From Streptomyces sp. HmicA12 (GTDB lineage: Bacteria > Actinomycetota > Actinomycetes > Streptomycetales > Streptomycetaceae), in assembly GCF_000373565.1 (NCBI RefSeq), contig NZ_KB891807.1, forward strand, positions 82,186 through 146,185: 64,000 bases of DNA. Direction: 5' to 3'. This document shows positions 28,491 to 48,478 of this stretch, piece by piece. Numbering within the stretch: position 1 is the stretch's first letter; each line of letters starts with the position of its first letter. The notes beneath the pieces are model-generated. The model did not search any database. It worked only from the letters and a program-made list of their open reading frames with translations, and had not been told where the DNA came from. The position numbers and the translations under genes were made by a program.

Positions 28491-28501
28491 CCGGCGCACG
28501 C

Positions 28502-28545
28502 GAAAGCGGCCGTACGGGACGGTGACGTCCCGTACGGCCGCTTTC
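28502..28545. terminator. Strong bidirectional terminator
   Basis: A perfect 19-bp stem (GAAAGCGGCCGTACGGGAC at 28502-28520, complement at 28527-28545) with a 6-base loop lies between the convergent thiQ and LAETG-protein genes. A/T runs at each base of the stem can serve both strands. Confidence 0.92.
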
Positions 28546-28551
28546 GTCGGG

Positions 28552-33139: not shown

Positions 33140-34504
33140 TCAGATCTTCGTCCAGGCCTCCGTGAGGACCTGGCGGATGATGCCCTCGATCTCGTCGAAG
33201 GTCGCCTGGTCCGAGATCAGCGGCGGCGAGAGCTGGATGACCGGGTCACCACGGTCGTCGGCGCGGCAGTACAGGCCGTACTCGAAGAGCTTCTTGGAGA
33301 CGAAGCCGTAGAGCACGCGCTCCGACTCCTCGTCCGTGAAGGACTCCTTGGTGGCCTTGTCCTTGACGAGCTCGATGCCGTAGAAGAAGCCGTTGCCGCG
33401 GACGTCGCCGACTATCGGCAGGTCGTTGAGCTTCTGCAGCGTGCTGAGGAAGTTCGCCTCGTTGTCCAGCACGTGCTGGTTGAGGCCCTCGCGCTCGAAG
33501 ATGTCGAGGTTGGCGAGGCCGACGGCCGCGGAGACCGGGTGGCCGCCGAAGGTGTAGCCGTGCAGGAAGGTGTTGTCGCCCTTGTAGAACGGCTCGGCGA
33601 TGCGGTCCGAGACGATCGCGGCGCCGATCGGGGAGTAGCCCGAGGTCATGCCCTTGGCGCAGGTGATGATGTCCGGGACGTAGCCGAACTTGTCACAGGC
33701 GAACATCGTGCCGAGGCGGCCGAAGGCGCAGATGACCTCGTCGGAGACGAGCAGCACGTCGTACTGGTCGCAGATCTCGCGCACGCGCTGGAAGTACCCG
33801 GGCGGCGGCGGGAAGCAGCCACCGGCGTTCTGCACCGGCTCCAGGAAGACGGCCGCGACCGTCTCCGGGCCCTCGAAGAGGATCTCCTGCTCGATCTGGT
33901 CGGCGGCCCAGCGGCCGAAGGCCTCCGGGTCGTCGCCGTGGATCGGGGCGCGGTAGATGTTGGTGTTCGGCACCTTGTGGGCACCGGGGACCAGCGGCTC
34001 GAAGGGAGCCTTCAGGGCCGGCAGGCCCGTGATCGACAGGGCGCCCTGCGGGGTGCCGTGGTAGGCGACCGCACGCGAGATGACCTTGTACTTCTGGTGG
34101 TTGCCGGTGAGCTTGTGGTACTGCTTCGCCAGCTTCCACGCGGTCTCGACGGCCTCGCCGCCACCGGTGGTGAAGAAGACCTTGTTGAGGTCGCCCGGAG
34201 CATAGTGGGCCAGGCGCTCGGCGAGCTCCACGGCCTTGGGGTGGGCGTACGACCAGATCGGGAAGAAGGCCAGCTCGGCCGCCTGCTTGGCGGCGACCTC
34301 GGCGAGCTCCTGGCGGCCGTGGCCGGCCTGGACCACGAACAGGCCCGCGAGGCCGTCGAGGTACTTCTTGCCCTTGTCGTCGTAGATGTAGGTGCCCTCG
34401 CCACGCACGATGGTGGGAACGGGCGCGTTCTCGTACGACGACATGCGGGTGAAGTGCATCCACAGGTGGTCGTACGCGCTCTGGCTGAGGTCCTTGGTGC
34501 TCAC
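33140..34504 (-). CDS. Class III aminotransferase of the polyamine region (putrescine/omega-amino acid type)
   Basis: The 454-residue PLP enzyme has the class III core. TTGGGEAVETAWKLAK binds the cofactor phosphate, DEVICAFGRLG holds the Asp that contacts the pyridine, and Lys284 in TCAKGMTSG forms the Schiff base. It resembles pyruvate-dependent omega-aminotransferases. Its neighbours (an Lrp regulator and a gamma-aminobutyraldehyde-type dehydrogenase) point to removal of an amino group from putrescine or a related diamine. GTG 34504 is the start. It lies two bases downstream of lrp, so both form one operon. Confidence 0.85.
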   Translation of the reverse strand: MSTKDLSQSAYDHLWMHFTRMSSYENAPVPTIVRGEGTYIYDDKGKKYLDGLAGLFVVQAGHGRQELAEVAAKQAAELAFFPIWSYAHPKAVELAERLAHYAPGDLNKVFFTTGGGEAVETAWKLAKQYHKLTGNHQKYKVISRAVAYHGTPQGALSITGLPALKAPFEPLVPGAHKVPNTNIYRAPIHGDDPEAFGRWAADQIEQEILFEGPETVAAVFLEPVQNAGGCFPPPPGYFQRVREICDQYDVLLVSDEVICAFGRLGTMFACDKFGYVPDIITCAKGMTSGYSPIGAAIVSDRIAEPFYKGDNTFLHGYTFGGHPVSAAVGLANLDIFEREGLNQHVLDNEANFLSTLQKLNDLPIVGDVRGNGFFYGIELVKDKATKESFTDEESERVLYGFVSKKLFEYGLYCRADDRGDPVIQLSPPLISDQATFDEIEGIIRQVLTEAWTKI

Positions 34505-34506
34505 GG

Positions 34507-35019
34507 CTATCGGGTTCCCCACATATAGGTCTGCTTCTTGAGCTTGAGGTAGACGAAGCTCTCGGTGGAGCGCACGCCGGGCAGGGCCCGGATGCGTTTG
34601 TTGATGACGTCCAGAAGGTGGTCGTCGTCCTCGCAGACGACCTCCACCATCAGGTCGAAGGAGCCCGCCGTCATCACGACGTACTCGCACTCCGGCATGG
34701 CCGTCAGCGCGTCCGCCACGGGATCCAGGTCACCCTCGACGTTGATCCCGACCATCGCCTGCCGCCTGAATCCCACGGTGAGCGGGTCGGTGACGGCGAC
34801 GATCTGCATCACGCCCTGGTCGAGCAGCTTCTGGACGCGCTGGCGCACGGCTGCCTCGGACAGGCCCACGGCCTTGCCGATGGCGGCGTACGGACGCCTT
34901 CCGTCCTCCTGGAGCTGTTCGATGATGGCGAGGGAGACGGAGTCCAGCGACGGGTTGGCTCCGCCGTTCTTCGAACTGGGTCCCTTGGGGTCTGCGCTGC
35001 GACTGGCCACGGACCTCAC
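34507..35019 (-). CDS. Lrp/AsnC-family transcriptional regulator
   Basis: The 170-residue protein has a winged helix-turn-helix (SLAIIEQLQEDGRRPYAAI, then VGLSEAAVRQRVQKLLDQG) and a C-terminal RAM ligand/oligomer domain (VVMTAGSFDLMVEVVCED). It is transcribed together with the aminotransferase and divergently from the aldehyde dehydrogenase. It probably regulates both through the palindromic DNA between them. GTG 35019 or GTG 35010 could be the start. Confidence 0.88.
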   Translation of the reverse strand: MRSVASRSADPKGPSSKNGGANPSLDSVSLAIIEQLQEDGRRPYAAIGKAVGLSEAAVRQRVQKLLDQGVMQIVAVTDPLTVGFRRQAMVGINVEGDLDPVADALTAMPECEYVVMTAGSFDLMVEVVCEDDDHLLDVINKRIRALPGVRSTESFVYLKLKKQTYMWGTR

Positions 35020-35047
35020 TGTGCACGAGGGGTCGTCCGTTTCGCAA

Positions 35048-35109
35048 CCCCGGACCGATGAAATTCGTTGTTTACGCTTCCGATACTCACGGATTTCGTA
35101 GGTCCGGGG
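35048..35109. promoter_or_regulatory. 62-bp dyad in the lrp/aldehyde dehydrogenase divergent region
   Basis: Two 20-base arms match in inverse orientation at 17 of 20 positions. The outer CCCCGGACC/GGTCCGGGG blocks (35048-35056, 35101-35109) are perfect, and inner GAAATTCG/CGGATTTC blocks follow after three bases. A 22-base AT-richer centre contains TTGTTTACGCTTCCGATACT. Its size and position suit a multimeric Lrp-type operator, though a cruciform-forming palindrome is possible too. Confidence 0.6.
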
Positions 35110-35202
35110 TGGCGGGGGGTGTCGAAAACGTCGGTGAACGGATTAGGGTGGGTGTCTCAAGCAGTGGACATCTGCCTTTTCGATCCGCAAGGAGGCCGGT
35201 CA

Positions 35203-36645
35203 GTGACCACCAGTGAGCTGCGTCGTCTGCGTAATTACATCGATGGCGAGTTCCGGGACGCCGCCGACGGGCGGACCACCGATGTGGTCAACCCGGCGAC
35301 GGGCGAGGCGTACGCGACCGCGCCGCTGTCCGGGCAGGCCGACATCGACGCCGCCATGGCCGCCGCCGAGGCCGCGTTCCCGGCCTGGCGCGACCTCGTA
35401 CCGGGCGAGCGCCAGAAGTACCTGCTCAAGATCGCGGACGCGTTCGAGGAGCGGGCCGAGGAGCTCATCGCCGCCGAGGTCGAGAACACGGGCAAGCCGA
35501 TCGGCCTGACGCGGAGCGAGGAGATTCCGCCGATGGTCGACCAGATCCGCTTCTTCGCGGGTGCGGCCCGGATGCTGGAGGGCCGCTCGGCCGGCGAGTA
35601 CATGGAGGGTCTGACCTCCATCATCCGCCGCGAGCCGATCGGCGTCTGCGCGCAGGTCGCGCCGTGGAACTACCCGATGATGATGGGCGTCTGGAAGTTC
35701 GCGCCCGCGCTCGCCGCCGGCAACACGGTCGTGCTGAAGCCGTCGGACACCACCCCGGCGTCGACCGTCCTGATGGCCGAGATCATCGGCTCCATCGTGC
35801 CCAAGGGTGTCTTCAACGTCGTCTGCGGCGACCGCGACTCCGGCCGCATGATGGTCGAGCACAAGACCCCGGCGATGGCATCCATCACCGGTTCCGTGCG
35901 CGCCGGCATGCAGGTCGCCGAGTCCGCCGCCAAGGACCTCAAGCGCGTCCACCTGGAGCTGGGCGGCAAGGCCCCGGTCGTCGTCTTCGGCGACGCCGAC
36001 ATCGCCAAGGCCGCCGAAGGTATCGCCGAGGCCGGTTACTTCAACGCGGGCCAGGACTGTACGGCCGCCACCCGCGTGCTCGTCCACGAGTCGGTGCACG
36101 ACGAGTTCGTCACCGCGCTCGCCAAGATCGCCGCCGAGACCAAGACGGGTCAGCCGGACGACGAGGACGTGCTGTACGGCCCGCTCAACAACCCGAACCA
36201 GCTCGCGCAGGTCACCGGGTTCATCGAGCGCCTCCCGGCCCACGCCAAGGTCGAGGCCGGCGGCCACCGCGTCGGCGACAAGGGCTACTTCTACGCCGCG
36301 ACCGTCGTCTCGGGCCTCAAGCAGGACGACGAGATCATCCAGAACGAGGTCTTCGGCCCGGTCATCACCGTCCAGTCCTTCACGGACGAGGAGCAGGCCG
36401 TCTCCTACGCCAACGGCGTCGACTACGCGCTCGCCTCCTCGGTCTGGACGAAGGACCACGGCCGGGCGATGCGCATGTCGAAGGCGCTCGACTTCGGCTG
36501 CGTGTGGATCAACACCCACATCCCGCTGGTCGCCGAGATGCCGCACGGCGGCTTCAAGAAGTCCGGCTACGGCAAGGACCTGTCGGCGTACGGCTTCGAC
36601 GACTACACGCGCATCAAGCACGTGATGACGTCGCTGGACGCGTGA
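35203..36645 (+). CDS. Gamma-aminobutyraldehyde-type aldehyde dehydrogenase
   Basis: The 480-residue NAD-dependent enzyme has catalytic Cys286 in AGQDCTAAT and Glu252 in LELGGKAP. It also has the cofactor block APWNYPMMMG. Sequence style and context (aminotransferase and Lrp regulator beside it) suggest oxidation of 4-aminobutanal, made from putrescine, to GABA. AAGGAGG at 35189-35195 supports GTG 35203. Its stop overlaps the DUF1990 gene. A second aldehyde dehydrogenase of the same kind starts at 49398. Confidence 0.88.
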   Translation: MTTSELRRLRNYIDGEFRDAADGRTTDVVNPATGEAYATAPLSGQADIDAAMAAAEAAFPAWRDLVPGERQKYLLKIADAFEERAEELIAAEVENTGKPIGLTRSEEIPPMVDQIRFFAGAARMLEGRSAGEYMEGLTSIIRREPIGVCAQVAPWNYPMMMGVWKFAPALAAGNTVVLKPSDTTPASTVLMAEIIGSIVPKGVFNVVCGDRDSGRMMVEHKTPAMASITGSVRAGMQVAESAAKDLKRVHLELGGKAPVVVFGDADIAKAAEGIAEAGYFNAGQDCTAATRVLVHESVHDEFVTALAKIAAETKTGQPDDEDVLYGPLNNPNQLAQVTGFIERLPAHAKVEAGGHRVGDKGYFYAATVVSGLKQDDEIIQNEVFGPVITVQSFTDEEQAVSYANGVDYALASSVWTKDHGRAMRMSKALDFGCVWINTHIPLVAEMPHGGFKKSGYGKDLSAYGFDDYTRIKHVMTSLDA

Positions 36646-48225: not shown

Positions 48226-48403
48226 GCGCAGTTCCCCGCGCCTCCTCATGCCTTCGCGTCCGCCGAGTTCTCTTGTCGCGCGGGTGCGGGTTGTGGGTGG
48301 TTGCTCGCGCAGTTCCCCGCGCCCCTTTCGCCTTCGCGTCTGCCGTGGTCCCTTGTCGCGCGGCTGACGGCCGGTGGGAGCTTCTCGCGCAGTTCCCCGC
48401 GCC
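48226..48403. repeat. Three direct copies of a ~80-bp intergenic repeat
   Basis: GCGCAGTTCCCCGCGCC occurs at 48226, 48307 and 48387, spaced 81 and 80 bases. The intervening units share CCTTCGCGTC and CTTGTCGCGCGG blocks, so they are a decayed tandem duplication. They fill most of the 426-bp space between the convergent DUF4190 and NADAR genes, which holds no gene. Confidence 0.8.
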
Positions 48404-48478
48404 CCTGAGAGCGAGCTCCGCTCGCTTCAGGGGAAGCCGCGCGCAGCGCATGCTTCAGGGGCGCGGGGAACTGCGCGA
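48385..48478. terminator. Perfect 24-bp inverted repeat at the convergent gene end
   Basis: TCGCGCAGTTCCCCGCGCCC plus CTGA (48385-48408) is exactly complementary to 48455-48478. The 46-base spacer contains its own GCGAG/CTCGC hairpin. Placed between two convergent genes, it likely acts as a bidirectional terminator. It is built from one forward and one reverse copy of the adjacent repeat. Confidence 0.75.

Follow-up and report, generated by a model that had tools for sequence, protein, structure and literature searches.

We found two conserved 15-bp semi-palindromes, with centers 31 bp apart, between a gene for an Lrp/AsnC-family regulator and a divergent gene for an aminobutyraldehyde dehydrogenase in Streptomyces sp. 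HmicA12. The element that they form, at positions 35056 to 35101, is very probably a two-dimer operator of the adjacent regulator, set between the predicted divergent promoters of lrp-aminotransferase and the dehydrogenase gene. All positions are those of the window, the whole 64,000-nucleotide stretch of DNA that was analyzed. An earlier note had placed an Lrp operator between lrp and its probable target in the form of one 62-bp dyad. The location and the assignment gain support from Pfam, from conservation, and from the absence of the site pair in eight genomes that lack the regulator, but the 62-bp dyad as the unit does not. The features of the region are as follows.

33140 to 34504, minus strand: class-III aminotransferase, PatA-like, in the SCO5655 position (Pfam Aminotran_3)
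34507 to 35010, minus strand: Lrp/AsnC-family regulator, 167 aa from GTG 35010, in the SCO5656/EpuRII position (Pfam AsnC_trans_reg and HTH_AsnC-type, above cutoff)
35018 to 35023, minus strand: predicted lrp -10 box, CACAGT, 18-bp spacing, assigned by eye
35042 to 35047, minus strand: predicted lrp -35 box, TTGCGA, assigned by eye
35048 to 35055, no strand: outer left arm, CCCCGGAC, dyad pairing not conserved
35056 to 35070, no strand: left operator site, 15-bp semi-palindrome CGATGAAATTCGTTG, center 35063, probable Lrp dimer site
35071 to 35086, no strand: 16-bp spacer of constant length and poorly conserved sequence, which sets the 31-bp center distance in 81/81 loci
35087 to 35101, no strand: right operator site, weaker 15-bp semi-palindrome TCACGGATTTCGTAG, center 35094, second probable Lrp dimer site
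35102 to 35109, no strand: outer right arm, GTCCGGGG, dyad pairing not conserved
35122 to 35127, plus strand: predicted dehydrogenase -35 box, TCGAAA here and TTGAAA in many relatives, assigned by eye
35144 to 35149, plus strand: predicted dehydrogenase -10 box, TAGGGT, 16-bp spacing, assigned by eye
35203 to 36645, plus strand: aminobutyraldehyde dehydrogenase, PatD/PuuC-like, in the SCO5657 position (NCBIfam NF010000, 699 bits versus a cutoff of 615)

For the regulator we chose GTG 35010 as the start, since the surrounding letters are conserved in most relatives. The aminotransferase start was taken 2 nt past the lrp stop, and the commonest lrp-aminotransferase distances in 80 related loci were -1, 8, and 2 nt; the two genes probably form one operon. 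In every one of these 80 relatives the dehydrogenase gene is divergent from lrp and the aminotransferase gene is co-directional with it, and the element sits between the Lrp/AsnC gene and its probable target. The order SCO5655-SCO5656-SCO5657 in a table of PMC9397018 is the same, and by this published gene order, rather than by sequence comparison to S. coelicolor, the regulator is in the position of SCO5656. Against NF008370, the Lrp equivalog, the protein scored 38 bits where the cutoff is 233, too low for an E. coli-type global Lrp.

The dyad was described in the earlier note with the right coordinates: 35048 to 35067 and 35090 to 35109 match at 17/20 positions around a 22-base center. That this center is AT-richer was also borne out, with a spacer GC of 0.47 here and a mean of 0.55 in 200 loci, compared to a right-flank mean of 0.68. 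A repeat search gave the longest ungapped form as 35043 to 35068 with 35089 to 35114, matching at 22/26 positions with a 20-base gap. As a chance baseline we used 20 second-order Markov sequences modeled on the window and counted repeats by axis. With 20-base arms, at least 17 matches, and gaps of 0 to 60, there were 9 axes in the window versus a mean of 0.70 in the Markov sequences, and the 22-of-26 form had 4 axes versus 0 in all 20 sequences. When placements rather than axes were counted, there were 43 repeats in the window versus 0 to 8 in eight Markov sequences. The inverted repeat at 35048 to 35109 is beyond chance, yet three other repeats in the window equal or beat it. It is not unique in the window, and near-perfect is a generous word for 17/20 matches. 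Two strong inverted repeats elsewhere in the window, at 28497 to 28550 and 48385 to 48478, each match at 20/20 positions in 20-base arms and score 22/26 and 24/26, respectively, in the longer form.

Which part of the dyad is conserved was read from two sets of loci. The first, 81 aligned loci, is the window plus the best 80 of 577 regulator relatives obtained by one scan of genome contigs; those 80 are all named Streptomyces, and their regulators are 84 to 96% identical in the best segment. For the second, 130 loci were added to the 81 and 11 identical to others over 170 bases were dropped, which left 200 loci; their 46-base cores comprise 195 distinct sequences. The added loci cannot show absence, because they were picked by the element model as its better-scoring matches. 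Loci L082 to L085, L116 to L122, and L235 to L283 stand outside all counts, as does L318, a 46% paralogue.

We found that the conserved part of the dyad consists of the two 15-bp semi-palindromes at a constant distance, in 81/81 loci and in all 200. Seven letters of the left site are invariant in both sets (81/81 and 200/200): A35058, G35060, T35064, C35066, G35067, T35068, and G35070. The same is true of C35090, A35093, C35097, G35098, and A35100 in the right site, and site letters that are invariant in the 81 loci persist in 199 or 200 of the 200. Self-complementarity about the center, at distances 1 to 7, occurred in 80, 55, 81, 0, 81, 5, and 69 of the 81 loci for the left site and in 81, 42, 40, 81, 35, 30, and 10 for the right site. 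The two arms resemble each other about equally in direct orientation (mean over the 81 loci, 7.42/15) and in inverted orientation (7.38/15); their inverted arrangement may therefore not be a design feature in its own right. The symmetrized site consensus is CTACGAAATTCGTAG; the E. coli Lrp consensus is a 15-bp semi-palindrome with W at its center. A 14-mer from the left site, GATGAAATTCGTTG, has one exact occurrence in the 9.16-Mb genome, and with up to 2 mismatches it occurs at 7 places, the operator included, versus 3 for a reversed control.

The outer arms gave a different picture. Positions 35048 to 35055 and 35102 to 35109 are complementary at 8/8 positions in only 2 of the 200 loci. One is the window and the other L022, from Streptomyces sp. 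150FB, and the letters differ between the two: CCCCGGAC and GTCCGGGG in the window, CCCCGTAT and ATACGGGG in L022. The outer arms are thus a feature of this strain that its relatives do not have in common, and the proposal of the earlier note that the dyad is a single unit could not be upheld. Conservation of the arms, which the note had put forward as a check, holds for the inner sites and fails for the outer arms, so that its ground for refutation half applies. The perfect outer arms in two loci could reflect chance, weak selection, or local template switching.

We consider it quite unlikely that the 62-bp dyad functions over its full length, with the outer arms, as a single symmetric operator or structure. 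Some numbers do lean that way: partner shuffles predict 0.02 loci with 8/8 outer pairing, where 2 were found; outer pairing over the 200 loci is 0.421 versus 0.394 in shuffles, of which 6 of 2000 reach 0.421; and mean outer pairing peaks at the true axis, with 3.37/8 versus 2.78 and 2.83 at the neighboring axes. This excess is the best remaining argument for a wider symmetric unit. However, 7/8 outer pairs occur in 0 of the 200 loci (1.24 expected) and 6/8 in six (8.08 expected), and L137, whose right arm is the same as that of the window, has 6/8 outer pairs, indicating that a few point changes suffice. We did not build on the excess, because the partner-shuffle test takes no account of relatedness and the arms clearly lack conservation. 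The reading that we carry forward is therefore the pair of inner 15-bp sites.

To study the distance between these sites, we built a 15-mer matrix on the 200 loci and applied it to 45 upstream regions outside the training set. Twelve regions came from genomes of the genus that have the regulator but no match to the element model, and 17 came from loci in other genera of the family; of the remaining 16, 4 belong to the genus and 12 to two further families of the order. When any spacing between 15 and 44 bp was allowed, the best pair lay at 31 bp in 42/45 regions, and 39 of these 42 pairs exceeded 15.0, the best value among 180 first-order shuffles, which themselves had no preferred spacing. The three pairs at 31 bp that fell below the best shuffle were those of L295 (10.0), L234 (8.7), and L317 (-14.5), the last counted among the 42 although its score is noise. 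In L233, L296, and L316 the best pair was at spacings other than 31 bp; L233 has lrp and the divergent dehydrogenase, yet no clear site pair. Among the 12 genomes of the genus with lrp but no model match, 11 have a 31-bp pair, that of L234 being weak. The loci are related by descent; therefore, the constant 31 bp represents conservation and not a series of independent events.

A weak third site-like score was seen at 35118 to 35133 (center 35126), about three turns to the right of the second site and overlapping the predicted dehydrogenase -35 box (35122 to 35127). Its mean score is -7.0; the two sites reach 22.0 and 15.2, and the median for comparison is -41.9. We did not count it as a site, given the low score and a register that shifts by one base between relatives.

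To search for the paired element we used a 47-position sequence model. In the strain's own genome, where 150 of 2447 first-look candidates were scored, the model gave one match (E 1.2e-10), with the next three at 0.40, 1.04, and 1.26. A wider regulon carrying the paired operator was accordingly rejected, since no second match appeared among those 150 of 2447 candidates. E. coli Lrp, a family relative, is a global regulator with many degenerate sites, whereas this genome has one paired site. The model matched 170/199 genomes of the genus, this strain's included, and among the rows listed there was one match per genus genome except for two in G032. The second match in G032 (L284, 1503 to 1543; C29:79722-79758) is weaker, with an E of 0.0016 and the sequences CGGATTCCGCAAATG and CAACGAAATCCG; it sits between minus-strand reading frames and is possibly the operator of a related Lrp protein. 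In a draw of 81 genomes from the family, the element matched in 14/15 of the genus and 8/66 of other genera. The latter fraction is at least partly a matter of divergence, because 15/17 of the other-genus loci keep a 31-bp pair above every shuffle. The regulator itself was found in 141/147 genomes drawn from the order (E 1e-35).

Of 29 genus genomes without an element match, 20 were examined and 9 were left out. Eight of the 20 have no Lrp orthologue (E 1e-30). These eight (L319 to L326), several of which are fragmented assemblies, keep the aminobutyraldehyde dehydrogenase at 74 to 88% identity (88% in L319 and 87% in L320). In none of the eight did the 450 bp upstream of the dehydrogenase contain a site pair above shuffle level (best scores, -23.0 to 3.7), and 4.4 kb at each locus gave no match to lrp or the aminotransferase. 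In two of them, L321 and L322, one 15-mer resembling the right site is still present, so the loss is not entirely clean. In addition, among the 29 diverged loci for which gene order was determined, L316 and L317 have no divergent dehydrogenase in 1.5 kb and no pair above shuffle level. Since the pair is missing from the eight Lrp-less genomes and from L316 and L317, the operator goes together with the regulator and with the divergent gene order.

These observations bear on two other explanations. One holds that the element is merely chance symmetry combined with conserved promoter elements, with no regulator bound. About 0.7 repeats of the 17-of-20 kind are expected per random 64-kb sequence, but conservation, constant spacing, and joint loss with the regulator all oppose this, making it extremely improbable. 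The other holds that the element is the operator of a different regulator, EpuRI-like or GlnR, and that the Lrp gene is merely a neighbor. EpuRI (SCO1614) shifted the sco5657 and epuRII promoters, among others, in electrophoretic mobility shift assays (PMC8998196), as this explanation would have it. However, the eight Lrp-less genomes keep the dehydrogenase without the site pair (though two retain the single right-site-like 15-mer noted above), the operator appeared once among the 150 of 2447 candidates scored in the genome, so that no other promoter, EpuRI's own included, was seen with it, and both sites have the Lrp form. We therefore regard the operator of another regulator as unlikely and assign the element to the adjacent Lrp/AsnC protein.

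The repeat lies in an intergenic region, where it might also act as RNA in a leader transcript, forming a hairpin, a terminator, or an attenuator, and a sub-threshold Rfam match was obtained (E 0.095; 20.5 bits versus a cutoff of 197). However, we found no compensatory change: pairing is 0.514 in the sites versus 0.513 in partner shuffles and 0.273 in the spacer versus 0.286. We also found no terminator-like site, and both predicted transcripts would begin beyond the element and be directed away from it. RNA structure was rejected for its lack of covariation, of an Rfam match above cutoff, and of a terminator; as an account of the DNA element it is very improbable.

The layout of the element agrees with what has been described for this family. 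Lrp-family dimers recognize 13- to 17-bp imperfect repeats, with two or three helical turns between neighboring sites (PMC2995911), and a periodicity of 30 to 31 bp has been mentioned for the family (PMC8707732). Here, the two conserved 15-mers are imperfect inverted repeats within that size range, one for each putative dimer, and their centers lie 31 bp, or three helical turns, apart. The remark in the earlier note that it knew of no described operator of this form was thus not supported, as dimer semi-palindromes of 13 to 17 bp at two or three turns are a standard layout of the family (PMC2995911, PMC10201364). The operator is a sound new example of an already known kind of switch.

By sequence, the closest solved relative of the regulator is FL11/PH1519 of Pyrococcus horikoshii (PDB 1ri7, 2e1c, and 2zny; 4.2e-19). 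FL11/PH1519 binds DNA as a dimer and as an octamer (PMC2995911), and its site is quoted as ATAAA ATT TTTAT (PMC8707732); it differs from the present regulator in being archaeal, with lysine and arginine as ligands. The closest working model for the element appears to be BarR of Acidianus, by analogy of layout. BarR of the Sulfolobales (Acidianus hospitalis and Sulfolobus acidocaldarius) is a beta-alanine-responsive Lrp whose gene is transcribed divergently from that of an aminotransferase; the protein forms an octamer with wrapped DNA (PMC10201364). As here, its 15-bp semi-palindromic sites lie in the shared intergenic region, some of them about three turns apart (PMC10201364). In an E. coli reporter BarR represses its own gene and activates the partner, whereas autoactivation is reported in S. 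acidocaldarius (PMC10201364). BarR has three or more sites, with other sequences and archaeal promoters, in contrast to the two sites here. We did not class the regulator as a BarR because the divergent gene here encodes the dehydrogenase, not an aminotransferase; the aminotransferase gene is co-directional, downstream of lrp.

Within Streptomyces, the system to compare is EpuRII of S. coelicolor, which has the same gene order and binds its own promoter. Mobility shift assays of EpuRII (SCO5656) showed shifts for its own promoter and for seven other targets (PMC8998196), with 2 μg of protein according to a figure legend of that paper. Because of the gene order, the epuRII and sco5657 promoters share one intergenic region, and PMC8998196 names the sco5657 promoter only as an EpuRI target. 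With seven targets besides its own promoter, the reported range of EpuRII exceeds the one paired operator that we found in this genome; either EpuRII also binds single or different sites or some of the shifts are unspecific. In the main text of PMC8998196 no word begins with "footprint," "palindrom," or "operator," and a search of an open-access library, with subscription papers, supplements, and regulon databases outside its scope, found no description of an EpuRII operator. In expression tables SCO5656 is lower in later mycelium stages and changes after altered supercoiling (PMC3610822, PMC6637917).

The predicted promoters suggest how the element might work. The predicted lrp -35 box includes a plus-strand GCAA that is nearly invariant, its positions 35044 to 35047 being conserved in 198, 199, 200, and 199 of the 200 loci. 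The block CACTGTGCAC, at the predicted lrp -10 box, is found in most relatives, in the register of the window in 62 to 65 of 81 at most columns. From these boxes the lrp transcript may start at about GTG 35010, which would give a leaderless mRNA. A scan for the consensus sigma-70 promoter found neither of the two promoters that we assigned by eye. Relative to the predicted starts, the left-site center would lie at about -53 for lrp and the right-site center at about -60 for the dehydrogenase gene, with both sites upstream of both predicted -35 boxes.

We infer that the regulator binds the element in this strain, probably sitting on both sites as a tetramer or octamer and staying bound. A metabolite of the polyamine pathway would be the ligand, and the bound regulator would turn on one or both of the divergent units, which encode the steps from putrescine to GABA. 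Because both sites appear to lie upstream of both -35 boxes, we lean slightly toward activation; repression, by wrapping of the DNA, would be nearly as likely. The strong induction of sco5655 and sco5657 by polyamines (PMC5403932) fits either model.

EpuRII may be a one-operator switch rather than a pathway-wide polyamine regulator. One tetramer or octamer, on two sites exactly three turns apart, would drive two divergent promoters together, one of them belonging to a leaderless lrp-aminotransferase operon, and the wider target list would reflect weak or unspecific binding. We offer this view tentatively, as a possibility that falls somewhat short of an even chance.

More generally, this case illustrates that a conspicuous symmetry seen in a single strain can join a conserved core to flanks that are not conserved. 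The two sites and their 31-bp distance provide a precise, testable candidate operator for a polyamine regulator of Streptomyces whose binding we found documented by gel shifts only. Its single copy here and its linkage to the regulator across the genus limit the genes that can be controlled through such paired sites.
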